Source: Nitratireductor kimnyeongensis
GTDB taxonomy: Bacteria; Pseudomonadota; Alphaproteobacteria; Rhizobiales; Rhizobiaceae
Reading direction: 5' to 3'
DNA: 64,000 nucleotides
Assembly (NCBI RefSeq): GCF_019891395.1
Contig: NZ_CP078143.1
Coordinates: 3,485,001 to 3,549,000 of the forward strand
The notes under the pieces were generated by a model. The model had not been told where the DNA came from. It searched no databases and saw nothing but the letters and a program-made list of their open reading frames with translations. Position numbers and translations under genes: made by a program. Below, piece after piece: positions 37,049 through 52,159 of the stretch. The number at the start of each line of letters is the position of its first letter. Position 1 is the stretch's first letter.

Positions 37049-37051
37049 TCG

Positions 37052-38215
37052 ATGCGATCCGAAACGCTGGAACACACGACGCGCATCCTGTCCGATCTGG
37101 TGGGGTTTCCCACCATTTCGGCAGACAGCAATCTGGAAATGATCGCCTATGCCAGCGAGCTTTTGAGCGCGCTCGGTGCAAGGCTTTCAATGACGCTCGA
37201 CGACACCGGACACAAGGCAAACCTGTTCGCCACGCTTGGGCCGGAGGGGGATGGCGGCATCGTGCTTTCGGGCCATTCCGATGTGGTGCCGGTGGAAGGG
37301 CAGGACTGGGCGAGCGATCCGTTCGCCGTGCGTGAGGCCGATGGAAAGCTCTTTGGACGTGGCACATGCGACATGAAGGGCTTCATCGCCTGTACGCTTG
37401 CCATGGCGCCGCATTTTGCCGAACTGGATCTCAAGCGACCGCTCCATTTCGCCTTCACCTATGATGAGGAGGTGGGGTGTTTTGGCGCGCGCGCGCTGGT
37501 GGAAGAGCTGGAGAGAGCCGAAATCCGGCCCTCCGTCGCCATCATAGGCGAGCCGACCATGATGCGCATCATCGAAGGGCACAAGGGCTGCTTTGAATAC
37601 ACGACCGAGTTTCGCGGGCTCGCCGGCCATGCCTCTTCGCCTGAACGCGGCGTCAATGCGGTTGAATATGCGGTGCGCTATATTTCGCGGCTCATGGCGC
37701 TGGCCGAGGAGCTGAAGACGCGCGCGCACAAGGGCAACCGGTTCGATCCGCCCTGGACGACACTGCAGGTGGGCACGATTGCCGGTGGTGCGGCGCGCAA
37801 CGTGATCGCCGACCACTGTTCCGTGGAATGGGAAATGCGTCCGGTGCGCAATGAGGATGCGGATTTCGTGAAAGACAGCATCCGCGCTTTTGTGGAAGCC
37901 GAGCTGAAACCGGCCATGCAGGCGGTGTTCGAGGGTGCCGACATCGTGACCCATGTGATCGGCGAGGTGGACGGACTGGAGCCGGTGAGTGAATCGGAGG
38001 CACGCCAGATCGTGTCGGAGCTGACCGGCCTCACCGAGGCGGAAGTGGTGGCGTTCGGCACGGAAGCGGGGCTCTTCCAGAAAGCCGGGATTTCCTCCGT
38101 CATCTGTGGGCCGGGCTCCATCGAACAGGCGCACAAGGCAGATGAGTTCGTCTCGCTGGAACAGCTCGATGAATGCCTTGGCATGCTTGAACGGCTGTGC
38201 AGGAAGGTGAGCTGA
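37052..38215 (+). CDS. ArgE-like M20 deacetylase, probable N-acetyl-diaminobutyrate deacetylase
   Basis: A 387-residue M20 deacetylase close to acetylornithine deacetylase (ArgE). Visible motifs are SGHSDVVPVEGQDW, GRGTCDMKGFIA, the catalytic TYDEEVGCFGA, IGEPTMMRIIEGHKG and AGHASSPERGVNAVEYA. It follows doeA by three bases. The second step of ectoine breakdown removes the acetyl group from N-acetyl-diaminobutyrate, usually by DoeB/EutE of the AstE/aspartoacylase fold. That gene is absent here, so this enzyme probably does the job. N-acetylornithine is the alternative substrate. Confidence 0.84.
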   Translation: MRSETLEHTTRILSDLVGFPTISADSNLEMIAYASELLSALGARLSMTLDDTGHKANLFATLGPEGDGGIVLSGHSDVVPVEGQDWASDPFAVREADGKLFGRGTCDMKGFIACTLAMAPHFAELDLKRPLHFAFTYDEEVGCFGARALVEELERAEIRPSVAIIGEPTMMRIIEGHKGCFEYTTEFRGLAGHASSPERGVNAVEYAVRYISRLMALAEELKTRAHKGNRFDPPWTTLQVGTIAGGAARNVIADHCSVEWEMRPVRNEDADFVKDSIRAFVEAELKPAMQAVFEGADIVTHVIGEVDGLEPVSESEARQIVSELTGLTEAEVVAFGTEAGLFQKAGISSVICGPGSIEQAHKADEFVSLEQLDECLGMLERLCRKVS

Positions 38216-38234: not shown

Positions 38235-38927
38235 ATGACAGGCGACGCACGCGCGAGGTTTGAGCGGATCTACACGCTTTTGCGCGAACGCATCTGTCTG
38301 CTCGACTATCCGCCGGGCATGCGGTTGCGCGAAGAGGACCTCGCCGAGGAATTCGACACCAGCCGTACACCGATCCGCCGGGTTCTGGCGCGGCTTGAAG
38401 ACGAAGGCTATCTGCGCTCTGTTCACGGCGTGGGCACCATCGTCACGGATATCGACATAGCCTCGCTGGAACAGGTCTACCGGCTGCGGGTAGAGCTTTC
38501 CGAATTGCTCGGCAAGCTCTCGCCAGTGCCACCTGATGAAGACGCCAAACGCGCCTTCGCTGCCATGAAGACGCGCTGCGAGGCTTTGGTCGGAACCCCA
38601 AGCCAGCGCGCCTTCGCGCAGCTCAACATGGATTTTTTCCATCTTTTGATGACGCTGACGGAAAACGAGCCGCTGCAGGAGTTTTCCGAGCGGCTCTATT
38701 ATCAGACCACGCGGATCTGGCTGAAACGTGCGGCCGGCGAGGACGGCACGGAAGAAACGCTTGCCAGCGAGATCGGATTTTTCCTGCGCGAGGTTTCCGA
38801 CATTGCCGCAGCCGTGGCCTGCGGGGCGCTGGAAAGCGTCGGGCAAATCCGCCGCGCCCATGTCGCCATGAGTTTTGCCCGGCTGAAGGCCAGGGCGGGA
38901 GAAGAGGCGGAGGCTGACCCGGTTTAG
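38235..38927 (+). CDS. GntR-family (FCD) transcriptional regulator
   Basis: A 230-residue GntR regulator. The N-terminal winged helix-turn-helix covers residues 8-70 (PPGMRLREEDLAEEFDTSR, TPIRRVLARLEDEGYL). An all-helical FCD effector domain with His/Asp positions (LNMDFFHLLMTLTENEPL) follows. It is co-oriented 19 bases after the ArgE-like gene. TTGTACACAA sites upstream of eutB and doeA fit its family's operators. Ectoine clusters in Rhodobacterales are controlled by EnuR, a MocR-type protein; this is a different GntR subfamily. Its end overlaps the convergent pfkB gene by four bases. Confidence 0.85.
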   Translation: MTGDARARFERIYTLLRERICLLDYPPGMRLREEDLAEEFDTSRTPIRRVLARLEDEGYLRSVHGVGTIVTDIDIASLEQVYRLRVELSELLGKLSPVPPDEDAKRAFAAMKTRCEALVGTPSQRAFAQLNMDFFHLLMTLTENEPLQEFSERLYYQTTRIWLKRAAGEDGTEETLASEIGFFLREVSDIAAAVACGALESVGQIRRAHVAMSFARLKARAGEEAEADPV

Positions 38928-39820
38928 GAGGCCTCCTTTGCCAGCGCGCTCAGATCGGGCAGGTCGGTCGCGCCGCCAACCCGCATGACGGCTTCCGCCC
39001 CGCAGCGATTGCCAGCTGCAAGGCATTGTTCGAGCGACTTGCCGGAAAGCCAGGCATCGATAAAACCGGCATTGAACGCGTCTCCGGCTCCCGTGGAATC
39101 GATTACATTGACGGGCTGTGTCGGCATAGAGACGGTGGTTTCGGCGGTGATTGCAATGGAGCCTTCCGGCCCGCGCTTGACGATTGTAAGCGGTGCGGGC
39201 GGTTTCTTGCCGGGGGAAATGGCAAGCCGCTGCGCTTCGGTTTCATTCGGCAGGAATATGTCCACGGCTCCGATCAGCGCGGCGAGATCGTCGCGGGCAA
39301 GAACCGCATCGTCCCAGGAACAGTCGAGCGAGATGGAAAGCCCCGCACCGCGTGCCTGTTCGATCAGGAAAGGGGCTTCCACCAGCGTGGCGAGCTCGCC
39401 GATATGGAGATGGGCGAAGTCACCGCTGGCGATGGCTTGCGCAAATGTTTCCGGCACGGCGGGACCGGCGCGCCGGGTGAGGAAGGCGCGTTCGGTGCCC
39501 GAAGTCATGGCAACGGTGATCTGCGGATCGAGCGTGTCGGGCATGGGCTGCGAGGCCGAAAGATCGACGCCGCTTGCCTCAAGCTCTTTCATCAATGCGG
39601 CGGCGAACGGTCCGGAGGGGAGTGCGGAAGCCAGCGAGACCGGACGACCGAGGGCTGCGACATACGCAGCCGTGATGAACGCGCCGCCGCCCGGCTTGAT
39701 CGACAGACCACCGGCGAAGACCTCTTCGCCAAGTGTCGGCATCTTCGGCAGTTCCGTGAAGATGAGATCGCAATAAAGGCGTCCCACGCTCAGGACGCGG
39801 CCCGACCGTCCGGCCCGCAT
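38924..39820 (-). CDS. PfkB-family carbohydrate kinase
   Basis: A 298-residue ribokinase-like kinase. The second PfkB signature, with the catalytic Asp, is VIDSTGAGDAFNAGF near residue 245, and GGGAFITAAYVAALG lies near the N-terminus at the substrate site. It phosphorylates a sugar or related alcohol in the cytoplasm; the substrate cannot be named. The ATG at 39820 overlaps the stop of the transporter ATPase gene (TGATG), so it is the last gene of the ABC operon. It should act on the imported, processed sugar. Confidence 0.86.
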   Translation of the reverse strand: MRAGRSGRVLSVGRLYCDLIFTELPKMPTLGEEVFAGGLSIKPGGGAFITAAYVAALGRPVSLASALPSGPFAAALMKELEASGVDLSASQPMPDTLDPQITVAMTSGTERAFLTRRAGPAVPETFAQAIASGDFAHLHIGELATLVEAPFLIEQARGAGLSISLDCSWDDAVLARDDLAALIGAVDIFLPNETEAQRLAISPGKKPPAPLTIVKRGPEGSIAITAETTVSMPTQPVNVIDSTGAGDAFNAGFIDAWLSGKSLEQCLAAGNRCGAEAVMRVGGATDLPDLSALAKEAS

Positions 39821-40878
39821 CACGGAAGAGCCTCCCCGGATTTCGCGTCAAACAGATGCATTTCGCCGGCCTTTGCCGTGAGCTTGACCGTTTCGCCAGC
39901 CTTTGGCGGTTTGCGGCCCGATGCCTTTGCAATCACCTCATGACCATTGACACCGACATAGACGAGCGTGTCGGCACCGAGCGGCTCGACAATGTTGACC
40001 GTTCCCGAGAACAGCCCCTTACCGCCGGTGACAACGAGATCGTCTGGCCGGATGCCGAGGATCACGTCGGCCCCTTCCGAGGCGTTGCGTTCGGGCAGAT
40101 CGATGCCAAGCCCATCGCCGAGTTTCACGCCCTTTCCGGCCCAATTGCCCGGCAGCATGTTCATGGATGGTGCGCCGATGAACTGGGCGACGAAGGTGTT
40201 TGCCGGCTTGTGATAGACCTCGAGCGGCGTGCCGACCTGCTGGATGTAGCCATCCTTCATGATCACGATCCGGTCGGCCATGGTCATGGCTTCCACCTGG
40301 TCGTGAGTCACGAAAATGATCGTGTTTCCAACGCGTTGGTGCAGCTTCTTGATTTCAAGCCGCATCTGCGTGCGCAGTTGGGCATCGAGATTGGAGAGCG
40401 GCTCGTCAAACAGGAAGACGGCCGGATCGCGCACCATGGCGCGGCCGATGGCGACGCGCTGGCGCTGCCCGCCCGACAGCTGGTTGGGGCGGCGCTCCAA
40501 GAGGTCGGTCATGCCAAGAATGGCGGCTACCTCATCGATGCGCCTGTCTTTGGCCTCCTTCGAAAGCTTGGACGTGCGCAGGCCGAAGCCAATGTTCTTG
40601 CGCACCGACATGTGCGGATAGATGGCGTAGTTCTGGAACACCATGGCGATGTCGCGCTCCTTGGGCTCCAGATTGTTGACGAGGCGCTCGCCGATGTGGA
40701 TTTCGCCGCCGCTGATTTCCTCAAGGCCGGCGATCATGCGCAGGGTCGTGGACTTTCCGCAGCCAGACGGGCCGACGAAGACGACGAATTCACCATCGGC
40801 CACGTCGAGATCGATGCCGTGAAGCACCTCGACCTTGCCGTAAGATTTGACGAGATTGCGAAGGGACAAGGTGGCCAA
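39820..40878 (-). CDS. sugar ABC transporter ATPase (UgpC/MalK family)
   Basis: A 352-residue ABC ATPase of the carbohydrate class. Walker A is GPSGCGKST, the signature LSGGQRQRVAIGRA, Walker B VFLFDEPLSNLD, and the H-loop FVTHDQVEAM. A C-terminal regulatory OB-like region (from about residue 240) is typical of MalK/UgpC. I choose a TTG start at 40878, preceded by GGAG and giving the family N-terminus LATLSLRNLVKSYG (TTG read as Met). It lies 4 bases after the lyase gene and overlaps pfkB. Confidence 0.88.
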   Translation of the reverse strand: MATLSLRNLVKSYGKVEVLHGIDLDVADGEFVVFVGPSGCGKSTTLRMIAGLEEISGGEIHIGERLVNNLEPKERDIAMVFQNYAIYPHMSVRKNIGFGLRTSKLSKEAKDRRIDEVAAILGMTDLLERRPNQLSGGQRQRVAIGRAMVRDPAVFLFDEPLSNLDAQLRTQMRLEIKKLHQRVGNTIIFVTHDQVEAMTMADRIVIMKDGYIQQVGTPLEVYHKPANTFVAQFIGAPSMNMLPGNWAGKGVKLGDGLGIDLPERNASEGADVILGIRPDDLVVTGGKGLFSGTVNIVEPLGADTLVYVGVNGHEVIAKASGRKPPKAGETVKLTAKAGEMHLFDAKSGEALP

Positions 40879-40882
40879 GGGT

Positions 40883-42370
40883 CTACTCCTGCAAGAGAGC
40901 GCCGAAGGCGGCATCAAGCGCGGCTCCGGCTTTTTCGGCGCGGGCAAGGTCCGCTGCCTGTTGTTCTGAAAGGCGGGTGAGGGTCGCGCGATAGGATTGA
41001 AGCGCCTCGTTCATGGGTTTGGGTGCGGGGCCTCCGAAACGCTCGCGCACCGCAACGAAATGGCGCGCGCTGACGGCTTCGCCATAGGCTGCAGGGTCGA
41101 GTGTGCTGTCGCGGCCAGAAAGCTCATTGAAGGCCTTGGAGAAAGCCTGGAACCCTTTTCCGAGGGGTTTGCCATCGGCGATGACGGCGCGGGCCGTGGC
41201 GGCGGCGATCTCATGCGCCTGCCGGAAGGACAGGTTTTCGCGGCGCACCAGCGTATCGGCGAGTTCCGTCACGGTGATGCAGGCGGCGTCGATGTTTCTG
41301 GCCACGCGGTCACTATTGATGGAAACGGCGCTGATCAGGGCTGCCAGAAGGTCGAGCACGCGCGCGCCGCTCTGGAAGGCTGAATAGCCAGCCACTTGAA
41401 CCTCGCCCTCGCTGTCATTCATGTCGGTGAAGGGCGTGTTGTGCATCGTGTTGATGACCGCATCGGCGCGCCCGCAGGTCATCGACGCGAGATGGCGCAG
41501 ATGCTCGATGGGCACCGGATTGCGCTTTTGCGGCATGATGGACGAAATCTGCACGAGGCTGCCGGGCACATGAAGCTGTCCCACCTCGAAGGCCGACCAG
41601 AACTGCATGTCCTGAATGAGGCGCCCGAGATGGAGGAAGGTTAGCTTGATCGCGCTATAAAGGCCGGTGACATAGTCGACCGAGGCGATGCAGCCATAGG
41701 AATTGCGCAGCGGCTCGGAAAAGCCCAAAAGATCGGCCATGCGGGCGCGGTCGATGGGAAAGCCGCTGGTGGTGATGGCGGCAGCGCCCATCGGGCAATG
41801 GTCGATATTGGCGCGGGCCGCCTGAAGGCGCTCGATGTCGCGCAGAAGCACCTCGACGGCGGCCGACAGGTAGTGGCCGAAGGTCGAGGGCTGGGCCGGC
41901 TGACCGTGCGTATAGGCAACGATCAGCGTGTCGCGCTCGGCTTCAGCCTTGGCGATCAGGGCGGAGGCCAACGCATGCGCCTTGCCGATCAGCGTGTCGG
42001 CATGGTGCTTCAAGGTCAGCTTGAAAACCGTGTGGTCCATGTCATTGCGCGAACGGGCCGTGTGCAACATGCCGGCGAGGTCTGGACCAAGCCGCGTTTT
42101 GAGCTCCGCCTCGACGAGGAAGAAATAGTCTTCCACCTCGCCGGTATAGGTGAGGGCATCGACATCGACCGTTTCGTCAATGTCGGCGAGGGCTGCGGCG
42201 ATGCGGGCGGCATCGTCGTGGGAAAGGATGCCGGTCTCCGTCAGCATCACCAGATGCGCCCGGTTGATGGCGCGGAACGCGCCGACATAATTGGCCTTCA
42301 CGCCTTCAAAGAGCGGTGCCAGCACCGTGTCCTTGTAGACGGGGTGAGGGAATTTTTCGTTGAAGCTCAT
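40883..42370 (-). CDS. argininosuccinate lyase-like C-N lyase inside a sugar ABC operon
   Basis: A 495-residue member of the aspartase/fumarase superfamily, closest to argininosuccinate lyase. The catalytic signature SSIMPQKRNPVPIEHLR and YTHGQPAQPSTFGHYL are present. At the substrate segment ArgH proteins read GRSRNDQ, but here it is TARSRNDMDHT, so the Gln is Met. It is also about 35 residues longer than E. coli ArgH. It sits between permease and ATPase genes, 7 bases after the former. EDDS lyase from Chelativorans is an ASL-type relative with a different substrate, a warning against calling this ArgH. The start is the ATG at 42370. Confidence 0.8.
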   Translation of the reverse strand: MSFNEKFPHPVYKDTVLAPLFEGVKANYVGAFRAINRAHLVMLTETGILSHDDAARIAAALADIDETVDVDALTYTGEVEDYFFLVEAELKTRLGPDLAGMLHTARSRNDMDHTVFKLTLKHHADTLIGKAHALASALIAKAEAERDTLIVAYTHGQPAQPSTFGHYLSAAVEVLLRDIERLQAARANIDHCPMGAAAITTSGFPIDRARMADLLGFSEPLRNSYGCIASVDYVTGLYSAIKLTFLHLGRLIQDMQFWSAFEVGQLHVPGSLVQISSIMPQKRNPVPIEHLRHLASMTCGRADAVINTMHNTPFTDMNDSEGEVQVAGYSAFQSGARVLDLLAALISAVSINSDRVARNIDAACITVTELADTLVRRENLSFRQAHEIAAATARAVIADGKPLGKGFQAFSKAFNELSGRDSTLDPAAYGEAVSARHFVAVRERFGGPAPKPMNEALQSYRATLTRLSEQQAADLARAEKAGAALDAAFGALLQE

Positions 42371-42377
42371 CGTGCGC

Positions 42378-43259
42378 TTATCCCTTGAGGCCGGCCATGA
42401 CAACGCCGCGAATAATGAAGCGCTGGAAGATGAGGAAGACGACCAGTGTCGGCAGCGTGGAGATGGCCGCACCTGTCATGATCAGTTCCCAGGCCACATC
42501 CACCTCGTCGCCGAAGCTCGAAAGCCCGACTGGCAACGTGTACATCTCCACCGAATTGGTGACGATCAACGGCCATATGAAGGCGGTCCAGTTCCCGAGG
42601 AAGACGAAGATCGCAAGGGCGGCAAGGGCCGGGCGCACGAGCGGCATGGCCACCTGCCACCAGATCTGGAACTCGTTCAGCCCGTCAATGCGCGCGGCCT
42701 CGAGGAAATCGTCGGGAACGGTCTCGAAAAACTGTTTCATGAGGAAAGTGCCGAAGGCGGTCATGACACCCGGGAACATGATGCCCCAATAGGTGTCGAG
42801 CCAGCCAAAGCTCTTGCTCATGAGATACCACGGTATGACGAGCATTTCGGTCGGGATCATCAGCGTCGACAGGATGGCGATGAAGACCAGATAGCGGCCG
42901 GGAAACTTGAACTTGCACAGCGCATAGCCCACCAGCGCGTCGAAGAAGACGGCGGATGCGGTGGTGATAATGGAGATCACCAGCGAGTTGACGAACCAGC
43001 GGTAGAAGCGTCCGTCTTCGAGCACATAGGTGTAGTTCTCGATCGTCGGCTCTTCGGGGATCAGGTTCAGATTGTAGACCTCGAAGGGGAATTTCAACGA
43101 GGTGGAGACCATGAACACGATGGGCATGATCATGAGAATGCCGCCACCGAACAGGAGCGCCCAGCGAATGAACTGGCCCATATTGCGCCTGGAATTGCGC
43201 GAGGATCCGGAGAAAAGCGCGTCGGTGAAAGGCTTTACGGCGATGTCCTGACTGGCCAT
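42378..43259 (-). CDS. sugar ABC transporter permease (MalG type)
   Basis: A 293-residue permease with six predicted membrane helices, the first near residues 30-55. The coupling EAA loop reads EAARIDGLNEFQIWWQVAMP about residue 195. This is the MalG-like partner of the permease encoded just upstream. It forms the membrane channel for the substrate bound by the protein at 44209-45474. The start is one base after that upstream permease's stop, and the stop is 7 bases before the lyase gene. Confidence 0.9.
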   Translation of the reverse strand: MASQDIAVKPFTDALFSGSSRNSRRNMGQFIRWALLFGGGILMIMPIVFMVSTSLKFPFEVYNLNLIPEEPTIENYTYVLEDGRFYRWFVNSLVISIITTASAVFFDALVGYALCKFKFPGRYLVFIAILSTLMIPTEMLVIPWYLMSKSFGWLDTYWGIMFPGVMTAFGTFLMKQFFETVPDDFLEAARIDGLNEFQIWWQVAMPLVRPALAALAIFVFLGNWTAFIWPLIVTNSVEMYTLPVGLSSFGDEVDVAWELIMTGAAISTLPTLVVFLIFQRFIIRGVVMAGLKG

Positions 43260-43260
43260 G

Positions 43261-44154
43261 TCAGCTATCCTTCAAAAGTCGAAGCTGGATCAGGCTGACG
43301 ACCAGCAGAATGGTGAAGAGCACGACGGTCTGCGCTGCCGCATAGCCCATATTGAAGCCGTTGAAGGCGGTGTCGTAGATCAAAAGCACCAGCGGCTTGG
43401 TGGAGTTCAGCGGACCGCCGGGATTGTTGGTGGTCATGTTGAAGACCTGATCGAAGATCCGCAGGAAACCGATCGAGGAAAAGACCACGAGAAACACGAT
43501 TGTCGGCTTCAGAAGCGGGATGGTGATCTCGCTCAGTACCGTCCATGTGGACACGCCATCGATGCGCGCGGCCTCGTAATAGCTTTGCGGAATGGCGCGC
43601 AGGCCGGCCATGAAGATGATGACCTGAAAGCCGAGGCCAGCCCAGACGGCGCAGGCCAGAACCGAGGGCAGGGCATTGGTTGTCGAGCTTAGAAACTCGA
43701 TCTGGCCGATGCCGAAACTTGCCAGAAAATTGTTGAACACGCCGATGGGGACCGGCTGGTAGAACCAGCGCCACACCCAGGCCATGGCCACCGCACTTGT
43801 CATGAAGGGCAGGAAATAGAGCGCACGGATGGTGCCGTGCATGAAGCGCACCTTGTCGAGGTGATAGGCGATGATGAAGGACAGGACGAGGCTGACCGGC
43901 GTGCCCAGGATCAGATACAGGAAAGTGTTCTTGAACACTTTCCAGAAGACCGGATCGCTGAACAGCTTTGCGTAGTTTTCAAGGCCCACATATTTCCGAT
44001 CGCCGAGCAGGTTCCATTCCTGAAAGGACAGAACGAAGGCATTGGCTGTCGGATAAAACCGGATGACGACGTAGAAGAGAACCGGCAGGGCGAGGAAAAT
44101 CCAGGCCCAGACGATCTGCTTCTGCGAGATGGTGAGATTGTTGTAAAAGCGCAT
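43261..44154 (-). CDS. sugar ABC transporter permease (MalF type)
   Basis: A 297-residue permease with six helices. The EAA loop is EAARIDGVSTWTVLSEITIP near residue 200, and the N-terminal region has WIFLALPVLFYVVIRFYP. It pairs with the MalG-type permease one base downstream. Between it and the binding-protein gene lies a GC-rich hairpin, so it may be made at lower level than the binding protein. Confidence 0.9.
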   Translation of the reverse strand: MRFYNNLTISQKQIVWAWIFLALPVLFYVVIRFYPTANAFVLSFQEWNLLGDRKYVGLENYAKLFSDPVFWKVFKNTFLYLILGTPVSLVLSFIIAYHLDKVRFMHGTIRALYFLPFMTSAVAMAWVWRWFYQPVPIGVFNNFLASFGIGQIEFLSSTTNALPSVLACAVWAGLGFQVIIFMAGLRAIPQSYYEAARIDGVSTWTVLSEITIPLLKPTIVFLVVFSSIGFLRIFDQVFNMTTNNPGGPLNSTKPLVLLIYDTAFNGFNMGYAAAQTVVLFTILLVVSLIQLRLLKDS

Positions 44155-44174
44155 GGCCCCTTCCCGAAATTTCG

Positions 44175-44203
44175 TTGGGCGCCCGGCAAGCCGGACGCCC
44201 CAA
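44175..44203. terminator. intercistronic hairpin after the binding-protein gene
   Basis: TTGGGCGCCCGGC and a matching right arm (GCCGGACGCCCCAA) form a strong stem with an AA loop and one mismatch. It sits 5 bases after the binding-protein stop and 20 before the permease start. Such hairpins often let only some transcripts read on and protect the binding-protein mRNA. Confidence 0.65.
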
Positions 44204-44208
44204 AGGGC

Positions 44209-45474
44209 TTATTTCTTGTAGTATTCGTCGAGGACTTTCTGCTCTTCCTCGGCGGCCTGCGACACGCTTTCTTCAAGCGCCTGACCCTGCAGCTCGATGC
44301 GCTGCATCATGTCCACCATGGCCTGACGCTGGGCGCTTTCATTGGCGAAGACGGTGGTCTTTGCGTATTCCAGACCCTTGATGAAGGGGCCGTAGACCGG
44401 GTGATTGACGTTTTCATCGGTCATGGCCGCTGACGGTTTGGCTGGCAGTTCGCCAACGGTCTCAAGCCAGATCTGCATGGCCTCGTCGGAGGTGAGATAC
44501 TCCATGAACTTGACGGCAGCGTCGAATTTCTCGCCTTCTGCCTTGGAGGTGATCGCGTTCACCCAGTAGGAGGAATAGTTCGATTTGGTGCCGTCAGGGC
44601 CGGCGGGAAGCTCGGCCACACCCCATTTGAGGCCGCGCACGCTTTCCAGCGCGCCGATGCGGAAGGAGCCGTCAATGTGCATGCCGGCGCGACCGGCCTT
44701 GAAGGCGGCCTGCGGCTCGTCCATGAAGGCGGCCTTGGTCACGCCATGCTTGGCCTGCAAATCATTATAAAAACCAAAGGCTTTCAGCCCGGCCTCATTG
44801 TTGTAGTTGACCGTCTTGTAGTCATCCAGATAGGGCTCGCCGCCAAACTGGCGGATGAGCACTTCGCGGATCCAGTGGTGATCCTGCGCGGTCATGCCGG
44901 TGGTCAGGCCGACGGCGGTCAGATTGCCGGCACCATCTTTCTTGGTAAGTTTCTTGGCGGATTCGACAAGCTCGTCAAGATTGGCCGGCGGGTTCTCGAT
45001 GCCGGCTTCCTCGAACATGCGCTCATTGTAGAACAGCGCCAGCGAGCGCACGGCGGTGGGAAGGGCCCAGTAGCTGTCGCCCATCCGCATCGCCTTCACC
45101 ATGGGGAAGAACTCTTCCTCGATCTTTTCCGGCGGGAAGGTGTCGGCGGGCAGCGGCTGGATGAGCTCGGCTTCCACATAATCGTTGAGCCAGCCATAGA
45201 AGAGCTGGACGACATCGGGACCCTGACCGGCGGGAATGGCCGCGGCGACCTTGGTGCGATAGCTGTCATAGGGGAAATGCGTCATCTTGACGGTGATGTC
45301 GGGATTGGCCGCTTCGAAATTCTCGATCAGCTTGTCCATCGCATCGACGCGGGCTTCGAAGAAATACTGCCAGTACTCGATTTCGACCGCTGATGCGCCA
45401 CCCGTGCCAGCCGCCATGGTCATGGCTGCCGTGGCGGCACCCAGCATGAAAGTGCGTAGTCTGTTGCGTTTCAT
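44209..45474 (-). CDS. ABC transporter solute-binding protein (MalE type, family 1)
   Basis: A 421-residue periplasmic binding protein. It has a cleavable signal peptide (MKRNRLRTFMLGAATAAMTM, cut near GASAVE) and the type D pattern of sugar-binding proteins: EIEYWQYFFEARVDAMDKLI, PDITVKMTHFPYDSYRT and DSYWALPTAVRSLALFYN. It captures the transported solute for the two permeases. Family 1 proteins mainly bind oligosaccharides, polyols or glycerophosphodiesters. It heads the minus-strand operon and is divergent from the ROK regulator across an inverted repeat operator. Confidence 0.9.
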   Translation of the reverse strand: MKRNRLRTFMLGAATAAMTMAAGTGGASAVEIEYWQYFFEARVDAMDKLIENFEAANPDITVKMTHFPYDSYRTKVAAAIPAGQGPDVVQLFYGWLNDYVEAELIQPLPADTFPPEKIEEEFFPMVKAMRMGDSYWALPTAVRSLALFYNERMFEEAGIENPPANLDELVESAKKLTKKDGAGNLTAVGLTTGMTAQDHHWIREVLIRQFGGEPYLDDYKTVNYNNEAGLKAFGFYNDLQAKHGVTKAAFMDEPQAAFKAGRAGMHIDGSFRIGALESVRGLKWGVAELPAGPDGTKSNYSSYWVNAITSKAEGEKFDAAVKFMEYLTSDEAMQIWLETVGELPAKPSAAMTDENVNHPVYGPFIKGLEYAKTTVFANESAQRQAMVDMMQRIELQGQALEESVSQAAEEEQKVLDEYYKK

Positions 45475-45593
45475 TCTGCTTGCTCCCTTTGATTGCTGCC
45501 CGGAATGTAGCCAGCCAGCCTGTCACCCTCTGATCACCCGTCTCAACGAGGCGGCATGTCCATCCACCGACGATTAACTCAATCAAGTTGAAC

Positions 45594-45610
45594 ATTCAAG
45601 TTAGTTGAAT
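45594..45610. promoter_or_regulatory. inverted repeat ATTCAA-N5-TTGAAT upstream of ABC operon and ROK gene
   Basis: ATTCAA and TTGAAT flank GTTAG, 12 bases before the ROK start and 119 before the binding-protein gene. A related half-site, TCAAGTTGAAC, lies just left of it (45583-45593). The A/T-rich palindrome is what a ROK repressor would bind, and its position allows autoregulation. Confidence 0.55.
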
Positions 45611-45622
45611 TAATAAGCGCAT

Positions 45623-46822
45623 ATGAAGATCAACAATCCACGGCGCATTGTCGGATCGAACGCTGAACGCACCCGGCTTCACAACCGTCAGGTGGTGTTG
45701 GGCCACGTGCGTGAGCGGCAGCCCATCGGGCGTGCGGAGATTGCGCGCATATCGGGTCTGTCGACACAGGCCGTGAGCAACATCATTGCCGAACTGGAGA
45801 AAGACAGGCTTCTGATCGAAGCCGGCCGGCAGTCGGAGGGACGGGGGTTGCCTGTTCTGAAATACCGGCTCAATGCGGACGGCGCGGTGGCACTCGGCAT
45901 CGAGGTCAGGCCGGACGCAATGTTTGGCGCACTGGTGAACCTCGAAGGCGAGACGCTGTTCACCACGCGCGAGGCATTGTCGGACAATGCACCGTCCACA
46001 GTCGTTTCGGTGGCCAGGCGCATTCATACCAGCGCGCTTGAGGGGCGTTGCGGCAAGGCCCAGAGGATTCTTGGGGCCGGCGTCGTGATGCCTGGTCCCT
46101 TCGGCAAGGTTGGGATTTCAGGCGCGGGTCAATCGGCACTTCATGGCTGGGAGGAAAGCGATCCCGTTGCCGTGTTCGAGGAAGCGCTCGATATGCCCGT
46201 GGTCGTTGAAAACGACGCGACGGCTGCTGCCGTGGCCGAGCGCGTGCGCGGCGTCGCAACGGGGCTTCGCACCTTCTGCTTTCTCTATTTTGGAGCCGGG
46301 CTGGGTCTGGGCGTGGTCGCCGAGGGCGAGGTCCAGCGTGGTGCCTTCGGCAATGCGGGTGAAATCGGCCATGTCATTGTCCGGCCCGGCGGGCGGCTTT
46401 GTGCCTGCGGGAACCATGGCTGCCTTGAAACCTATGCCAGCCGGATCGCCGCGCGGGAGCAGCTTGCAAAGGCCGGCATCGCCATTGCCAGCGTGTCGGA
46501 TATCGAGCGGCTTTACGAGGCAGGCGATCCGCATCTGATGGCGTGGATCGACGAGGCGGCCGGACCGCTTTCACAGGCAATCGGACTGATCGAAAACCTG
46601 TTCGATCCCGAAACCGTAATTTTGGGCGGCGCCATGCCCGACGCGGTGCTCGACCATCTGATTTCCGCGCTCTGCCTGCCAGCCGGTTCCGTTGCCGCCA
46701 GCGACCGGCGGACCACGCCGCGCGTTCAGCGCGGTGCCTGCGGGCGCCTCACCGCCGCGCTCGGCGGAGCAGCACTCGTCATTCACGACACGATCACACC
46801 GCGCATTGCCGCGAAAACCTGA
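45623..46822 (+). CDS. ROK-family transcriptional regulator (NagC/XylR type)
   Basis: A 399-residue ROK protein with an N-terminal winged helix-turn-helix (residues about 15-70: PIGRAEIARISGLSTQAVSNII). A sugar-binding kinase-like core follows. It includes VVVENDATAAAVAE, GNAGEIGHVIVRP and the zinc motif CACGNHGCLETY. ROK repressors of this kind lose DNA affinity when a sugar or sugar phosphate binds. It is divergent from the ABC operon, 148 bases away, and is followed 19 bases later by the PIG-L gene, so it probably controls both arms. Confidence 0.88.
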   Translation: MKINNPRRIVGSNAERTRLHNRQVVLGHVRERQPIGRAEIARISGLSTQAVSNIIAELEKDRLLIEAGRQSEGRGLPVLKYRLNADGAVALGIEVRPDAMFGALVNLEGETLFTTREALSDNAPSTVVSVARRIHTSALEGRCGKAQRILGAGVVMPGPFGKVGISGAGQSALHGWEESDPVAVFEEALDMPVVVENDATAAAVAERVRGVATGLRTFCFLYFGAGLGLGVVAEGEVQRGAFGNAGEIGHVIVRPGGRLCACGNHGCLETYASRIAAREQLAKAGIAIASVSDIERLYEAGDPHLMAWIDEAAGPLSQAIGLIENLFDPETVILGGAMPDAVLDHLISALCLPAGSVAASDRRTTPRVQRGACGRLTAALGGAALVIHDTITPRIAAKT

Positions 46823-46841
46823 TATTTCGAGAGGTTCAGAA

Positions 46842-49196
46842 ATGCCCGTTTCCGATCAGGAGCGCATCGCCGCACAAGTGCGCAATCCGCGCATTGTCAG
46901 ACTGTGGCAGGCTCTTGCGCCGCTGAAATCCTGCGTCTCCTTCATGAACACGGGCGCGCACCCTGACGACGAAACCTCGGAAATGCTGGCCGCTCTCGCC
47001 TTGCGCGATGGAATATCGGTCTCCTTCGCCTGTGCCAATCGCGGCGAGGGCGGGCAGAACGCCATAGGCTCCGAAGTCACTCATGATCTGGGGGTGGTCC
47101 GCACGGCGGAAATGGAGCGCGCAGCCGATGTGCTCAATCTCAAACTCTATTGGCTATCGGAAACGCCCGACGACACGATCTTCGATTTCGGGTTCTCGAA
47201 ACGCGGCACCGAAACAATTGAAAAATGGGGACGCGAACGCACGCTCAAACGCTTTGTCGAGATCATACGCACCGAGCGACCGGACATCATCTGCCCCACA
47301 TTCCTGGATGTGCCGGGGCAACATGGCCATCACCGGGCGATGACCGAGCTCGCCCATGACGTGATGAGCGCCGCCGCCGACCCGGCATTTCCGGATGTGG
47401 ATCTACCGGTGTGGCAGGTGAAGAAGCTTTATCTTCCGGCCTGGTCGGGTGCGGGGGACAACTATGATGACGATCTGCCGCCGCCCAGCGCCACACTGAC
47501 AGTAAAGGGTACAGGGCTGGACCCGGTAACGGGCTGGAGCTGGGCGCAGATCGGTGAGCAGTCGCGCGCCTTCCATCTGACGCAGGGCATGGGCCGCTGG
47601 GTGCCACACGGCGAAGAGCGCGACTGGCCGCTGCATCTGGTGCGGTCCGAGGGGGATGGGCCGGACAAGCAGATCACGGACGGGCTGCCTGCAACGTTGG
47701 CTGATCTGGCTTCCTTTGCGGGTGCGCCTGAGATCGCCGCCGATCTGCAAGCGGCGCAGAGGGCTTGCGAGGCTGCATTGGCCGCATTTCCGGATCTGGG
47801 TGCGATCGCGCAGCAGGCTGCGCTCGCACTCAAGGCGGTGCGTGCTGTCCGCGATGCCTGCCCTGCCAAAGCCCGTGAAGAGGTGCAGCACCGCCTCGCT
47901 GCGAAGGAATTACAACTTTCCCACGTCATGCGGATTGCCAGCGGCGTGGAGGTGCGCGCTTGGCTTGAACACGATGTTCTCCGGCCCGGCGACAGTGTCG
48001 GGCTGACGATTGAAAGCTCGGGGCCCGTTGCAGATGTATCGCCGGTTCTACCGGAAGGCTGGCACTATGCAGATGGCTTTGTGCAGGTGCCGGTGGATGC
48101 CGAAGGCACGGACTGTTATCCGGCCACATATCGGCCCGGTATGGCACGCCTGCCGGCCATTCGTGTCGGTGTGACTGTTGGTGGAGTTTCATCAGAAACG
48201 CTTTTGCCGCTGGAGCGGGAACCGGTCGTGCTTCCTGCAAGGTCGGCAACACTTTCTCCCGACCGTGCTCTGATCAATGTCGCTTCGGAAATGCGCCAGA
48301 TCGATCTGCGTGTTTCCGAGCTTTTTCCTCAGTCGGGAAAAACGGGGCTGGACTTGCCGCCCGGCTGGAGCGCGACACCCGCCACAGGCGGTTTTCTTGC
48401 GGAGGCGCCGCAGGATGTTGCGGCAGGTCTTTATGATCTTCCCCTAAAGATCGACGGGATGCCTGCCGAAACCGTCAAACGGATGGGCTATCCGCATACC
48501 GGCGCACGCGCGCGGGCGTTTCCTGCACAATTGTCGGTGCGGGTTCTGGATGTAGCGCTGCCGGATGTGCGGGTGGGCTATGTCGGTGGCGGCAATGATC
48601 GCGTGGGATACTGGCTCAGGGCTCTCGGGCTCAATGCAATCGAATTGGCCGACAGCGACCTTACGGAAGAAGGACTGAAAGACATCGAGACGGTCGTGGT
48701 GGGCATCTTTGCGATGCGTGCGCGACCGGCGCTCAAAAATGCCATGCCGCTGGTGCATCGCTGGGTGGAGAATGGCGGCAATCTCGTCACGCTCTATCAC
48801 CGCCCATGGGATGACTGGGATCCGGAAACCGTGCCGCCGCGCCGGCTGGAAATCGGCAAGCCATCGCTGCGCTGGAGGGTGACGGACGAGAATGCAGGGG
48901 TCACCCATCTGTTGCCCGATCATCCACTGCTCAACACGCCAAACCGCATCACGCAAGAGGACTGGAAGAACTGGCACAAGGAGCGCGGGCTTTATTTCGC
49001 CAAGAGTTGGGACGAGGCCTATGAGCCGCTCCTGACCATGGCCGATCCCGACGAGGCAGCGCATGAGGGCTCGCTCCTTTCGGCTCGCATCGGAAAGGGG
49101 CGGCACACGCATGTGGCGCTCATCCTGCACCACCAGATGGAGAAGCTGGTGACGGGCGCGTTCCGCCTGATGGCGAACCTTGTGGCAAGGCCGTGA
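46842..49196 (+). CDS. large PIG-L/LmbE-family deacetylase with GATase-like C-terminus
   Basis: A 784-residue protein. The N-terminal PIG-L domain carries the zinc motif HPDDE (residues 40-44) and the later GQHGHHRA motif near residue 165, so it should remove an N-acyl group, usually acetyl, from an amino sugar. A long middle part is beta-rich. The last 220 residues (VRVGYVGGGNDRVGYWLRAL, later RWVENGGNLVTLYHRPW) resemble a glutamine-amidotransferase-like fold, without an obvious catalytic Cys in the nucleophile position. No signal peptide is seen. It lies 19 bases after ROK and overlaps the EamA gene. Confidence 0.82.
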   Translation: MPVSDQERIAAQVRNPRIVRLWQALAPLKSCVSFMNTGAHPDDETSEMLAALALRDGISVSFACANRGEGGQNAIGSEVTHDLGVVRTAEMERAADVLNLKLYWLSETPDDTIFDFGFSKRGTETIEKWGRERTLKRFVEIIRTERPDIICPTFLDVPGQHGHHRAMTELAHDVMSAAADPAFPDVDLPVWQVKKLYLPAWSGAGDNYDDDLPPPSATLTVKGTGLDPVTGWSWAQIGEQSRAFHLTQGMGRWVPHGEERDWPLHLVRSEGDGPDKQITDGLPATLADLASFAGAPEIAADLQAAQRACEAALAAFPDLGAIAQQAALALKAVRAVRDACPAKAREEVQHRLAAKELQLSHVMRIASGVEVRAWLEHDVLRPGDSVGLTIESSGPVADVSPVLPEGWHYADGFVQVPVDAEGTDCYPATYRPGMARLPAIRVGVTVGGVSSETLLPLEREPVVLPARSATLSPDRALINVASEMRQIDLRVSELFPQSGKTGLDLPPGWSATPATGGFLAEAPQDVAAGLYDLPLKIDGMPAETVKRMGYPHTGARARAFPAQLSVRVLDVALPDVRVGYVGGGNDRVGYWLRALGLNAIELADSDLTEEGLKDIETVVVGIFAMRARPALKNAMPLVHRWVENGGNLVTLYHRPWDDWDPETVPPRRLEIGKPSLRWRVTDENAGVTHLLPDHPLLNTPNRITQEDWKNWHKERGLYFAKSWDEAYEPLLTMADPDEAAHEGSLLSARIGKGRHTHVALILHHQMEKLVTGAFRLMANLVARP

Positions 49197-50080
49197 GCGC
49201 AGGCGCTACGGCAAAGGACAATCTGCGCGCCGGCGCGTGGCTTCTGGCGGATATGGGCCTCAACATCTGGGCCATATCCATCGTCAAGGCGCTGGGTGCC
49301 GGCTATCCGCCGTGGCAACTCGTCTTTCTGCGCGCGCTGGTCGGGTTCTGCCTGATTTTGCCATGGCTCGCGCGCCAGCGGCATGTTCTGTGGTCAATCG
49401 ACCGTGTGCCGTTGCATATCCTTCGGGTTTTCCTGTCGGCGGTGGCTCTTACAGGCGGGTTTTACGCTGTCGCGCATCTGCCGTTGGCGCTCTACATGAC
49501 GATGAATTTCACGCGGCCCGTTGTTCTGGTGGCGCTCTCGGCCCTGATCCTGCGTGAGGCGGTTTCCGGCTCGCGCTGGTTGGCGGCGGGGCTGGGGCTC
49601 GTGGGTGCGTTCATCGCCGCAAGTCCGGGCAATGTCCCATGGACGCCGGCGCTTCTGGCGGCGCTTGCTGCCGTTTTGGCGGGCACCGGGGCCATCATCG
49701 TCACGCGGCAGCTCAAGGGCACACCGCCGGTCGTCATGATGCTGTTTTATACCGGTGGGCTGGCGCTCATCACCGCCTGGCCGGCGCTCTCTGGCTGGCA
49801 GCCGATCGCGGCGGGGCATTGGCCGTTTCTTCTGGCGGTGGGCGTGTTTTCGCAGGCCGCGCAATTCTGCTTTCTGCGCGCCCACTGGCTGGGCGATGCC
49901 GGGTTTCTGGGGCCGCTCGGCTATTCGAGCCTCATCCTGTCCGGGCTTGTCGGCTATGTCTTCTTTGGTGAAATTCCCAGTTTCAACACGGTGATCGGTG
50001 CCCTTATCATCGTGTTTGCCACCGGGTTTCTCACATTGAGAACGGCGCGGCTGAGGAGCCACGCCGCCTCGGGGAACTGA
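49193..50080 (+). CDS. EamA-family (DMT superfamily) membrane transporter
   Basis: A 295-residue protein with ten predicted membrane helices arranged as two EamA repeats. Motifs such as FLRALVGFCLILPWL and the late ILSGLVGYVFFGEIPS, GALIIVFATGF are usual for the family. It starts at GTG 49193, overlapping the PIG-L stop by four bases (GTGA), so it is coupled to the deacetylase. EamA proteins export metabolites such as amino acids, or import some; here it may discharge a by-product of the adjacent pathway. It ends 14 bases from the convergent tctA stop. Confidence 0.85.
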   Translation: MSAGATAKDNLRAGAWLLADMGLNIWAISIVKALGAGYPPWQLVFLRALVGFCLILPWLARQRHVLWSIDRVPLHILRVFLSAVALTGGFYAVAHLPLALYMTMNFTRPVVLVALSALILREAVSGSRWLAAGLGLVGAFIAASPGNVPWTPALLAALAAVLAGTGAIIVTRQLKGTPPVVMMLFYTGGLALITAWPALSGWQPIAAGHWPFLLAVGVFSQAAQFCFLRAHWLGDAGFLGPLGYSSLILSGLVGYVFFGEIPSFNTVIGALIIVFATGFLTLRTARLRSHAASGN

Positions 50081-50094
50081 TTGGAGTCTTCCGC

Positions 50095-51630
50095 TCAGTC
50101 GGGGTCGGAACCCTCTGCTATGGCCTCGTCCGCGATCTTCGGACGGAAGTAGCGTCCCACGATCAGCGGCAGGACAAAGCCGACAATGGCAAAGGTCCAA
50201 AGGCCGATGGCCAGCCATGAGTTGAACAGCATTGTCCAGTCGCCATCATGGATGGTCATGGCGCGGCGCAGGTTCTTCTCCATCTGGTCGCCCAGAAGCA
50301 CGCCGAGAATGATCGGCACCAGCGGCACGTCGAGCTTGCGCAGCACCCAGCCCATGACACCGAAGATGACCATCACCACCAGATCGAAGGTGGAACCGGA
50401 AATGCCGTAGATGCCGACGAAGGAAATCATCGCCACGGCGGGCATCAGATAGCGTGTCGGGATCAGGAGAACCCGCACGAAGAGCGAGACCAGCGGCAGG
50501 TTCATGGCCAGAAGCATGATGTTGCCGATGAAGAGGGCGGCTATCAGCCCCCAGACCACATCCGGGTTCTGCTGGAAGAGCAGGGGGCCGGGCGTGATGT
50601 TGAGCGCAAGCAGCATGGCAAGCAGGACGGCGGTGGTGCCGGAGCCGGGGACACCCAACGCCAGCATGGGCACAAGCGCGCCGCCAGCGGCCGAGTTGTT
50701 GCCGGCTTCCGGTGCCGCCACACCGCGCGGGTCTCCCTTTCCGAACGTTCCCTTGCGGTCGGAGATCCGCTTTTCGAACGTGTAGGAAATGAAGGAGCCG
50801 AGCGAGGCGCCGGCCCCCGGCAGGACGCCGGCGATGAAGCCGAAGATCGTTGAGCGCCCCATGGCGGGCAGTGTTTCACGCACCATCTTCCATGGCGGCA
50901 CGATCCGACCCACTTTCACCGCCTTGTCGTCAGCACCGCTGCCGGCACGGTGTTCCAGAAAGATGAAGACTTCCGAGAGCGCGAAAAGGCCGACAATGGC
51001 GACGAGGAAGTCGATCCCGTCATAAAGATGCACCTCTCCGAAGGAGAAGCGCGGTACACCGGTCTGACCATCGACGCCGATGGTGGCGATGCCGAGACCG
51101 ATGACGGCTGCAAGCGCTGCTTTCGCCTGATTGCGGCTGGCGATGCCGCCGAGCGTTGCAAAGGCGAGCACGAAGAGCGCAAAATATTCAGCCGGGCCGA
51201 ACAGAAGCGCGACCTTGACGAGCTGCGGCGCCAGGAAGACCAGCCCCCATGTGGCAAAGAACGCGCCGATGAAGGAGGCCAGACCGGAGATGGCGAGCGC
51301 CTCTCCAGCCTTGCCGGCCTTGGCCATCGGATGCCCGTCGAGCGTTGTCATCAGCGCCGGTTCGTCGCCTGGAATGTTGAGAAGGATCGACGAGATGCGC
51401 CCGCCATACATGGCGCCGTAATAGACGCTGGTCAGAAGGATGAGCGCGGGCGTGGCCGGCAGGCCGAGCGTGAAGGCGAGCGGTATGAGGATCGCAACGC
51501 CGTTTGATGGGCCAAGACCCGGCAGGGCGCCGATGATGGTTCCGAGAAAGCAGCCGATCAGCGCCAGCATGAGGTTTTGCCAGGTCAGTGCGACGGCAAA
51601 GCCGTCTGCGAGTGATGCCAATGTGTCCAT
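50095..51630 (-). CDS. tctA: tripartite tricarboxylate transporter, large membrane subunit TctA
   Basis: A 511-residue integral membrane protein of the TctA family with about 11-12 helices. Family sequences are LIGCFLGTIIGALPGLGPSNG near residue 25, VYYGAMYGGRISSILLNIPGD near 70 and LPGAGASLGSFISY in the second half. It is the transport core of the TTT system, working with TctB and the periplasmic TctC. It follows tctB by 15 bases and is the last gene of the tctCBA operon. Confidence 0.92.
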   Translation of the reverse strand: MDTLASLADGFAVALTWQNLMLALIGCFLGTIIGALPGLGPSNGVAILIPLAFTLGLPATPALILLTSVYYGAMYGGRISSILLNIPGDEPALMTTLDGHPMAKAGKAGEALAISGLASFIGAFFATWGLVFLAPQLVKVALLFGPAEYFALFVLAFATLGGIASRNQAKAALAAVIGLGIATIGVDGQTGVPRFSFGEVHLYDGIDFLVAIVGLFALSEVFIFLEHRAGSGADDKAVKVGRIVPPWKMVRETLPAMGRSTIFGFIAGVLPGAGASLGSFISYTFEKRISDRKGTFGKGDPRGVAAPEAGNNSAAGGALVPMLALGVPGSGTTAVLLAMLLALNITPGPLLFQQNPDVVWGLIAALFIGNIMLLAMNLPLVSLFVRVLLIPTRYLMPAVAMISFVGIYGISGSTFDLVVMVIFGVMGWVLRKLDVPLVPIILGVLLGDQMEKNLRRAMTIHDGDWTMLFNSWLAIGLWTFAIVGFVLPLIVGRYFRPKIADEAIAEGSDPD

Positions 51631-51645
51631 TTTGGGCCTCCCGCC

Positions 51646-52077: not shown

Positions 52078-52112
52078 AACGGCGCGCTCCCCTGATGGTT
52101 TTCGATACAAAT

Positions 52113-52142: not shown

Positions 52143-52159
52143 AGCGTGTTTTCGGATGG

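Follow-up and report, generated by a model that had tools for sequence, protein, structure and literature searches.

Nine densely packed genes in two divergent arms occupy 38924..50080 of the 64,000-nucleotide window of the Nitratireductor kimnyeongensis genome that we analysed (Table 1). The original prediction had named these genes and described their tight packing; the genes, their positions and their packing were all confirmed. Overlaps of 4 bases join the PIG-L gene to the EamA gene and the ATPase gene to the PfkB gene, which starts with GTG. Gaps of 1, 7 and 4 bases separate the permease, lyase and ATPase genes, and the gaps between the ROK and PIG-L genes and between the binding-protein and permease genes are 19 and 54 bases, respectively. 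The probable start codon of the ATPase gene is a TTG at 40878, hence its end coordinate is about 40878.

Table 1. Genes and predicted operator of the cluster, with strand and the best supporting profile matches.
Feature	Coordinates	Strand	Evidence
PfkB-family sugar kinase	38924..39823	-	PF00294 134 bits
ABC transporter ATPase, UgpC/MalK type	39820..40878	-	NF008653 506 bits
Argininosuccinate-lyase-family (ASL) lyase	40883..42370	-	PF00206 145 bits; TIGR00838 299.7 bits
ABC sugar permease, MalG/UgpE type	42378..43259	-	PF00528
ABC sugar permease, MalF/UgpA type	43261..44154	-	PF00528
Periplasmic solute-binding protein, MalE type	44209..45474	-	PF01547 135 bits
Two tandem palindromes, predicted ROK operator for both arms	45578..45609	.	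conserved motif
ROK-family transcriptional regulator	45623..46822	+	PF00480 146 bits; NagC model 105 bits (under model cut-off)
PIG-L (LmbE-like) metallo-amidase/deacetylase, 784 aa, long C-terminal part	46842..49196	+	PF02585 64.5 bits
EamA-family exporter, accessory	49193..50080	+	PF00892 76 bits

The region between the arms holds two palindromes of the form [CT]TCAA-N5-TTGA[AG] (45578-45592 and 45595-45609). We observed TCAA-N5-TTGA in 93 of 117 divergent regions, that of N. kimnyeongensis counted, compared to a mean of 0.64 over 50 shuffles and to 1 of 116 lyase-internal controls. Only two sites in the genome match a stricter form of the palindrome, and one lies between the cluster arms. 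We propose that the palindromes are a candidate ROK operator serving both arms. The second strict site lies where a TRAP-type binding-protein gene (identified by eye) ends; it was considered as a possible regulon member and was taken as chance.

We searched 151 genomes of the family for orthologues of the lyase and of PIG-L. A close lyase orthologue (54-100% identity) was present in 16 genomes, that of N. kimnyeongensis counted, and the remaining lyase matches, most of them resembling ArgH, did not exceed 36% identity. PIG-L was found in 15 genomes, all within the 16 lyase carriers (hypergeometric, P = 9e-20; this figure, like the one given below for the kinases, assumes independent genomes or clusters, which the actual ones are not). 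A second sample of 398 genomes, drawn across the phylum, had the lyase in 6 and PIG-L in 5, and all five PIG-L carriers were among those 6.

We also collected 138 related clusters, of which 116 had flanks long enough to be judged (evaluable); member counts rest on tblastn with a fixed set of proteins or with proteins taken from annotated records and loci. Clusters were treated as distinct if their lyase genes shared <90% of 16-letter words, and close relatives therefore remain: L160 and L197, counted separately, have kinases and NagB proteins that are 99-100% identical. Gene order is kept between the clusters of relatives. All genes except EamA were present in 87 of the 116 evaluable clusters and the complete nine in 46, EamA being the least conserved member (detected in 54). 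Judged by this synteny and co-occurrence, the nine genes do form a functional unit, most of which stays together in many relatives, as expected from the earlier claim that the genes work together. The distribution of PIG-L is not the random one that the original prediction had taken to speak against it, but the gene is absent from 8 of the 116 evaluable clusters (present in 108) and is thus not essential to the core. The clusters without PIG-L include the divergent L060, L164 and L165, though not the most divergent, L210. This pattern places deacylation outside the core of the proposed pathway.

The genome holds five Lyase_1 proteins. The ArgH of the strain, which groups with known ArgH proteins, is encoded separately (C1:1076236) and is 33% identical to the cluster lyase, so the concern raised at the outset that this lyase might be the strain's only ArgH proved false. 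The cluster lyase scores above the argH equivalog cut-off (NCBIfam TIGR00838; 299.7 vs 279.5 bits). In the tree, 37 cluster lyases formed a clade of their own (SH-aLRT 100), and 17 ArgH rows formed a separate branch (support 98) with which the cluster lyase did not group. We observed 30 alignment columns fixed differently in cluster lyases and ArgH. The catalytic and succinyl-side motifs SRND, TH and SSxMPQKxN are retained (SRND in 137/137 cluster lyases with alignment coverage; TH, SS, K282 and N284 in 138/138). The ArgH segment P-L-x-Y-x-K-D-x-Q reads P-F-x-D-M-N-D-x-E in the cluster lyases, where the Tyr, Lys and Gln that we take to be the arginine-side residues of ArgH are replaced by Asp316, Asn318 and Glu321. 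D316, D319 and E321 are present in 138/138 cluster lyases and N318 in 137/138 (Thr in one). By tree position and active-site residues, the cluster lyase is distinct from ArgH. In the annotated plasmid records seen, the lyase is called argininosuccinate lyase, mostly argH; the whole lyase clade is thus probably misnamed, and the pathway thereby hidden.

The best PDB matches of the cluster lyase include EDDS lyase (174 bits), which in a profile search of the PDB scored 229.5 vs 243.3 for Thermus ArgH. Chelativorans is a related genus, and it is the source of EDDS lyase (PMC12363623). These similarities would fit a metallophore or chelator-type aminocarboxylate substrate (EDDS, aspergillomarasmine), as for EDDS lyase. 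We regard such a substrate as very unlikely. EDDS lyase falls outside the cluster clade, on a long branch whose exact place is unsure; the cluster lyase has His, Val and Asp in place of the EDDS-lyase contact residues Q159, D290 and Y320; and the sugar kinase, the glucosamine-6-phosphate (GlcN-6-P) deaminases described below and PIG-L would be left without a role.

The PIG-L protein matches its domain model well above the cut-off (PF02585, 64.5 vs 28.2 bits) and carries the zinc motif HxDD plus H and the sugar-binding Arg. H40, D42, D43, R67, H161 and H164 were present in 121/121 PIG-L homologues with alignment coverage. Every LmbE/PIG-L enzyme covered by a 2014 review has substrates with an N-acyl-glucosamine core (PMC4101496), and we propose that the cluster PIG-L is an N-deacylase of the glucosamine. 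Among NCBIfam models, the PIG-L domain came closest to the mycothiol-conjugate amidase Mca (33.8 bits), ahead of MshB (26.4 bits), BshB2 (20.7 vs 195.25 bits) and BshB1 (19.7 vs 182.5 bits). With this ranking, mycothiol-type thiol turnover would make PIG-L an Mca-like amidase on Cys-GlcN-inositol and give the lyase an unrelated job. All of these scores are far under the cut-offs, however, and inositol conjugates provide nothing for a fumarate-releasing lyase. Three clusters (L155, L164 and L166) also have the lyase, a kinase and a deaminase without PIG-L, and we consider mycothiol turnover extremely improbable.

PfkB was present in 89 of the 116 evaluable clusters and a ROK-type kinase in 11 others; 16 had neither. 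The two kinases never occurred together in the 116 (chance 2e-8, assuming independent clusters). The exception, L085, lies outside the 116 because of its short flank and has PfkB with a 39% ROK match behind it. Going by this exclusion, a ROK-type kinase replaces PfkB in variant clusters. PfkB is proposed to be a glucosamine (hexosamine) 6-kinase, a specificity that we infer.

By tblastn, 22 of the 116 evaluable clusters carried a GlcN-6-P deaminase, either NagB-II (14) or NagB (8), which have unrelated folds, and never both. In sixteen cases the deaminase gene follows the kinase gene on the same strand, and in two it comes directly after PIG-L, again on the same strand. The two NagB proteins tested, from L160 and L166, passed TIGR00502 (250.9 and 242.1 vs 236.9), and the four NagB-II proteins tested (242-313) were all below the NF046059 cut-off of 430. 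No deaminase was found at the locus in 94 of the 116 clusters, including that of N. kimnyeongensis, whose genome has a NagB-II relative (40%) elsewhere (C1:1649931-1650962), adjoining a MurQ-like gene (named by eye). The deaminases and kinases of the variant clusters reveal the probable end of the pathway and point to glucosamine as the sugar. The original prediction had the substrate as a sugar or amino sugar joined to an amino or dicarboxylic acid; comparative genomics makes an amino sugar with a dicarboxylic acid most likely, and NagB and NagB-II at variant clusters sharpen the sugar to glucosamine.

Ordinary use of GlcNAc or chito-oligosaccharides, with the lyase as a passenger or a second ArgH, would be compatible with the MalE-type importer, the ROK regulator, NagB or NagB-II and PIG-L, and with the lyase score above the argH cut-off. 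We judge this quite improbable, since L060, which has another kind of transporter and neither a MalE-type importer nor PIG-L, couples the lyase to a ROK protein and NagB in overlapping genes. The separate ArgH in the genome and the replacement of arginine-side residues in 138/138 cluster lyases also argue against it, and no NagA or glycosidase was noticed by eye among the 45 largest recurrent flanking groups.

These groups come from an all-against-all comparison of the flanking reading frames of the 138 clusters; besides cluster members, the 45 largest, judged by eye, held only common families and the flanks of near relatives. Ten of the 138 clusters, nine of them evaluable, encode a VOC/glyoxalase-like protein between the permease and the lyase, and a GH9 gene lies near the cluster in one plasmid record. 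In L161, EamA is followed by a gene that carries the annotation cysteine dioxygenase, and in the related cluster L074 by a 92% identical one; Pfam and NCBIfam searches gave no family for this gene. In Loktanella, Tranquillimonas and Aminobacter, the cluster has as neighbours an Lrp regulator and a class V enzyme resembling a desulfurase; in Aminobacter, a Blh-type sulfur dioxygenase is also next to it. The desulfurase-like gene was not enriched (12/44 vs 61/251 genomes, P = 0.7). The link of the cluster to cysteine through neighbouring genes is thus weak; it was dropped and is not used as evidence.

In the binding protein, R143 was present in 131/131 and R272 in 132/132 homologues with alignment coverage, and the corresponding positions are Asp and Ala in the acarbose/maltose-binding protein GacH. 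These conserved extra arginines would suit an anionic ligand.

With moderate confidence, we propose that the cluster is a ROK-controlled catabolic module for N-acylated glucosamine bearing a C4-dicarboxylate, the preferred substrate being glucosaminyl-malate, as in bacillithiol. As read from the gene families, the reactions and their order would be as follows. The binding protein and ABC importer would take up the acylated glucosamine-dicarboxylate conjugate, and PIG-L would strip its N-acyl group. The lyase would release the C4 unit as fumarate by the beta-elimination typical of fumarase and argininosuccinate lyase, leaving glucosamine, which PfkB would convert to GlcN-6-P. NagB or NagB-II, whether encoded within the cluster or at another place in the genome, would then yield fructose-6-phosphate and ammonia. 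EamA probably exports the freed acyl part or another by-product. Deacylation by PIG-L, fumarate release by the lyase and phosphorylation by the kinase had all been predicted, and comparative genomics supports these roles. The view that no described pathway has this gene set also stands, as we found no match in the open-access literature searched.

Known lyases of the ASL subgroup cleave C-N bonds, which speaks against the C-O cleavage that glucosaminyl-malate would require. An N-linked conjugate, such as N-(2-deoxyglucos-2-yl)-aspartate (which fructose and aspartate form as a Heyns product) or another N-substituted aspartate like it, would give glucosamine and fumarate by C-N lysis, with PIG-L handling acylated variants of the compound. 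The ASL and EDDS-lyase relatives are C-N lyases, and EDDS lyase adds many amines to fumarate (PMC12363623). An N-linked substrate would account equally well for the kinase and the deaminase, and for the dispensability of PIG-L in the 8 clusters that lack it. It leaves PIG-L without a clear role in the 108 clusters that have it, and to our knowledge glucosamine-aspartate compounds of this type are rare in nature. We consider it unlikely.

Glucosaminyl-malate, free or within bacillithiol, is the only natural compound known to us that fits the proposed scheme, and the bond cleaved by the lyase may therefore be C-O, not the C-N bond of the original prediction. Bacillithiol is Cys-GlcN-malate (PMC4360819), and N-methyl-bacillithiol was confirmed in Polaribacter sp. 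MED152 (PMC6336425). The preferred substrate would be bacillithiol or its fragments; with bacillithiol, the role of PIG-L would be that of a conjugate amidase, and the lyase would cleave at the C-O bond to malate. More tentatively, and as a doubtful though possible reading, the cluster may be the first catabolic pathway for bacillithiol-type thiols, in which PIG-L would be a bacillithiol-conjugate amidase of large size and the lyase a new ASL-family enzyme, a glucosaminyl-malate lyase that releases fumarate by acting on the C-O bond. In that tentative reading, the thiols could be Cys-GlcN-malate, N-methyl-bacillithiol or their GlcN-malate or GlcNAc-malate fragments.

If the overall scheme is true, it would give the fumarase/ASL superfamily a new reaction, acting on an amino-sugar conjugate, assign a substrate class to the family of this large PIG-L and bring to light a nutrient possibly used by many Alphaproteobacteria, of which most with a name are marine. 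Should the bacillithiol reading hold as well, it would explain the natural fate of the sugar-malate part of these thiols and provide thiol-cleaving enzymes. Marine and soil Alphaproteobacteria could then feed on the thiols of Bacteroidetes, Firmicutes and others.

The cluster lyase shares with ArgH its family, the active-site motifs HTxRSRND, TH and SSxMPQKxN and the predicted release of fumarate, but is 33% identical to the ArgH of its own strain and lies inside a sugar-conjugate operon. EDDS lyase of Chelativorans sp. BNC1 is also an ASL-family lyase with a comparable PDB search score and serves the catabolism of an imported compound, whereas its clade and amine-side residues are unlike those of the cluster lyase; we know of no amino-sugar genes beside it. 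The cluster PIG-L has the HxDD plus H zinc motif of BshB, Bca, MshB and Mca, and, judging by motif spacing, its Arg67 and His161 take the places of Arg68 and His144 of MshB. It differs from these enzymes in its catabolic context and in its 784 residues with a conserved long C-terminal part, compared to models of 217-284 positions. Variant clusters resemble GlcNAc/GlcN operons (NagC/ROK, NagB, NagB-II) in their ROK regulator, hexosamine kinase and deaminase, but here the ASL-family lyase is the common core. The proposed scheme also resembles peptidoglycan recycling through MurQ, and a MurQ-like gene and NagB-II are neighbours in the same genome. In MurQ recycling, an amino sugar first loses the hydroxy acid attached to it, by elimination at the C-O bond, and only then is the amino-sugar phosphate used further. 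MurQ itself has the SIS fold and is an etherase with lactate as product, whereas the cluster would use an ASL-family lyase and produce fumarate.

The nine genes were present in two divergent arms where the original prediction had placed them (Table). We observed intergenic gaps of 1 to 54 bases and 4-base overlaps at two junctions, PIG-L/EamA and ATPase/PfkB. The source genome comprises 4.05 Mb on two contigs, and its closest named relatives in a scan of GTDB contigs with the lyase were Nitratireductor species. The adjoining (hydroxy)ectoine genes were placed outside the unit because their GntR regulator turned up in just 7 of 95 loci. On the other flank, the transporter genes had no match among NCBIfam models at 1e-60.

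Features of the cluster, its flanks and related loci (window positions unless a locus fetched from a relative, L, is named)
Feature	Position	Description
Cluster	38924..50080	nine genes
Leftward arm		MalE-type binding protein, two permeases, argininosuccinate-lyase-family protein, UgpC-type ATPase, PfkB kinase
Rightward arm		ROK regulator, 784-residue PIG-L protein, EamA exporter
Palindrome copies	45578-45592 and 45595-45609	TCAA-N5-TTGA
(Hydroxy)ectoine degradation genes	33637-38212	adjoin cluster; EutC, EutB and DoeA pass their models; ArgE-type deacetylase and GntR regulator follow
Transporter flank	50095-55388	tripartite tricarboxylate-type transporter genes, then two-component pair (both by eye)
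Second PIG-L paralogues	L061:8768-11254 and L062:8983-11379	genomes G051 and G078; about 41-43% identical
Genes behind Aminobacter cluster	L158:15347-18289	Blh-type sulfur dioxygenase-like protein, desulfurase-like class V enzyme, Lrp regulator
Terrarubrum variant	L165:3713-16119	lyase and ABC genes, binding protein reversed, MBL-fold protein inside; nadA, L-aspartate oxidase and nadC genes downstream
Distant lyase	L063:8016-9524	argininosuccinate-lyase family (34%), outside cluster-lyase clade

Among 151 genomes of the family, a close lyase orthologue (at least 54% identical) occurred in 16 and PIG-L in 15, all 15 within the 16. In a draw of 398 genomes from the phylum, 6 encoded the lyase and 5 PIG-L, all 5 within the 6; the exception was genome G525. 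Gene order was the same across relatives in 20-kb stretches, and the outer flanks differed. The best 80 of 509 GTDB stretches encoding lyase relatives were taken on; together with 15 family loci, they held the lyase in 95/95 (by construction, because clusters were sampled via the lyase), PIG-L in 86, ROK in 84 and PfkB in 80, part of the misses being contig ends. Adding 43 of 44 clusters from 295 genomes of another family (genome G819 left out), three phylum-draw genomes (G329, G354 and G525) and 11 plasmid loci gave 152 loci and 138 distinct clusters, of which 116 had at least 8.5 kb upstream and at least 3.8 kb downstream of the lyase. These 116 clusters, from relatives that are not independent of one another, held PIG-L in 108, ROK in 105, PfkB in 89 and EamA in 54; neither PIG-L nor EamA was universal. 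Importer, lyase, ROK, PIG-L and PfkB occurred together in 87/116, and all nine genes in 46/116. Lyase/PIG-L co-occurrence and kept gene order bear out the proposal that these genes work together, and indicate that the cluster is a functional unit. No lyase was found within the 20 kb fetched around the second PIG-L paralogues. A VOC/glyoxalase-like insert of about 140 residues (as in L115, L123, L122 and L098) was observed in 10/138 clusters, always between permease and lyase.

Inter-arm regions were counted where binding protein and ROK were found, divergent and 60-800 bases apart. The palindrome TCAA-N5-TTGA was present in 93/117 such regions (116 clusters and the window), compared to 0.64 on average over 50 shuffles and 1/116 control stretches within the lyase gene. 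Its strict form occurred at just two sites in the genome, the second apparently by chance. The pattern fits a putative operator of one local ROK regulon.

The genome encodes five Lyase_1 proteins. One, encoded away from the cluster, groups with ArgH and is 33% identical to the cluster lyase, which is thus not the strain's only ArgH. In a 56-row tree built by a quick method, the 37 cluster lyases, divergent contexts included, formed a single branch (SH-aLRT 100) and 17 ArgH a separate one (98); EDDS lyase and the L063 lyase, both flagged for long branches, also fell outside the cluster-lyase branch. The L063 gene lies among dipeptidase-like, MmgE/PrpD-like and ABC genes (by eye), another context for the superfamily. 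The cluster lyases kept S107-R108-N109-D110 (137/137 covering those positions) and T154-H155, S276-S277, K282 and N284 (138/138). In contrast, the ArgH segment P-L-x-Y-x-K-D-x-Q, which we take to face the arginine part, is replaced by P-F-x-D-M-N-D-x-E (D316, D319 and E321 in 138/138; N318 in 137). Counting against a non-ArgH reading, the cluster lyase meets the NCBIfam argH cut-off (299.7 against 279.5), and annotated records label cluster lyases argininosuccinate lyase; we take both as over-broad annotation.

PIG-L residues H40, D42, D43, R67, H161 and H164, which by motif correspond to the residues reported to bind zinc and sugar in the superfamily, were kept in 121/121 homologues covering them. 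Its nearest NCBIfam model was Mca, all scores being weak (33.8 bits or less). According to passages in PMC4101496, superfamily members identified by 2014 all act on an N-acetyl-glucosamine core, and the thiol-conjugate amidases on an N-acyl-glucosamine core. The binding protein is similar to GacH, which binds acarbose/maltose, but has Arg at 143 (131/131 aligned) and 272 (132/132) where GacH has Asp and Ala, which would suit an acidic ligand.

A ROK-type kinase occupied the PfkB position in 11/116 clusters (Loktanella, Roseomonas, Paroceanicella and others); none had both kinases, and 16 had neither. Locus L085, with a short flank and outside the 116, encodes a 39% ROK match behind PfkB. A glucosamine-6-phosphate deaminase lay in or beside a minority (22/116): 14 clusters had NagB-II (SIS fold) and 8 classical NagB, and none had the two together. 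Of these deaminases, 16 were behind the kinase on its strand, 2 directly behind PIG-L and 4 elsewhere nearby. Both NagB tested passed curated cut-offs; all four NagB-II tested fell below theirs. The G525 cluster, where PIG-L was looked for and not found, ends in PfkB and NagB-II. In locus L060, also without PIG-L, lyase, ROK protein and NagB form three overlapping reading frames; the ABC transporter close by is of another kind, judged by eye to be of polyamine type. The window's cluster contains no deaminase; the genome encodes a NagB-II relative elsewhere, adjoining a MurQ-like gene. Kinase replacements and linked deaminases suggest a recurring core of lyase, hexosamine kinase and deaminase, with glucosamine the most likely sugar.

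In the scheme we consider most likely from these sequence comparisons, N-acyl-glucosamine conjugated to a C4-dicarboxylate would be imported and deacylated, the C4 part eliminated as fumarate, and the freed glucosamine phosphorylated, then deaminated to fructose-6-phosphate. An N-linked aspartate conjugate would suit the lyase equally well and PIG-L less well. For the N-acyl-glucosamine conjugate, bacillithiol with its precursor GlcNAc-malate is, to our knowledge, the only known natural compound with these three parts. Bacillithiol is described in part of PMC4360819 as cysteinyl-glucosaminyl-malate; passages of PMC6336425 report N-methyl-bacillithiol confirmed in Polaribacter sp. MED152, and dedicated amide hydrolases as required for cysteine release from bacillithiol-type thiols. 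Searches of open-access full texts yielded no paper pairing PIG-L with argininosuccinate lyase; the few papers combining bacillithiol with argininosuccinate lyase, or naming argininosuccinate lyase, glucosamine-6-phosphate deaminase and an ABC transporter in a gene cluster, did not, judged by their listings, deal with such a pathway, in line with the original prediction's statement that it knew of no described pathway with this gene set. Among the listings and passages on bacillithiol catabolism and amidases there, none gave a catabolic pathway for the GlcN-malate part. The original prediction had the lyase split a C-N bond with release of fumarate or a similar acid; fumarate release is retained, and with a bacillithiol-type substrate the lyase would break C-O, because malate is linked via oxygen. 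Fumarase too breaks a C-O bond.
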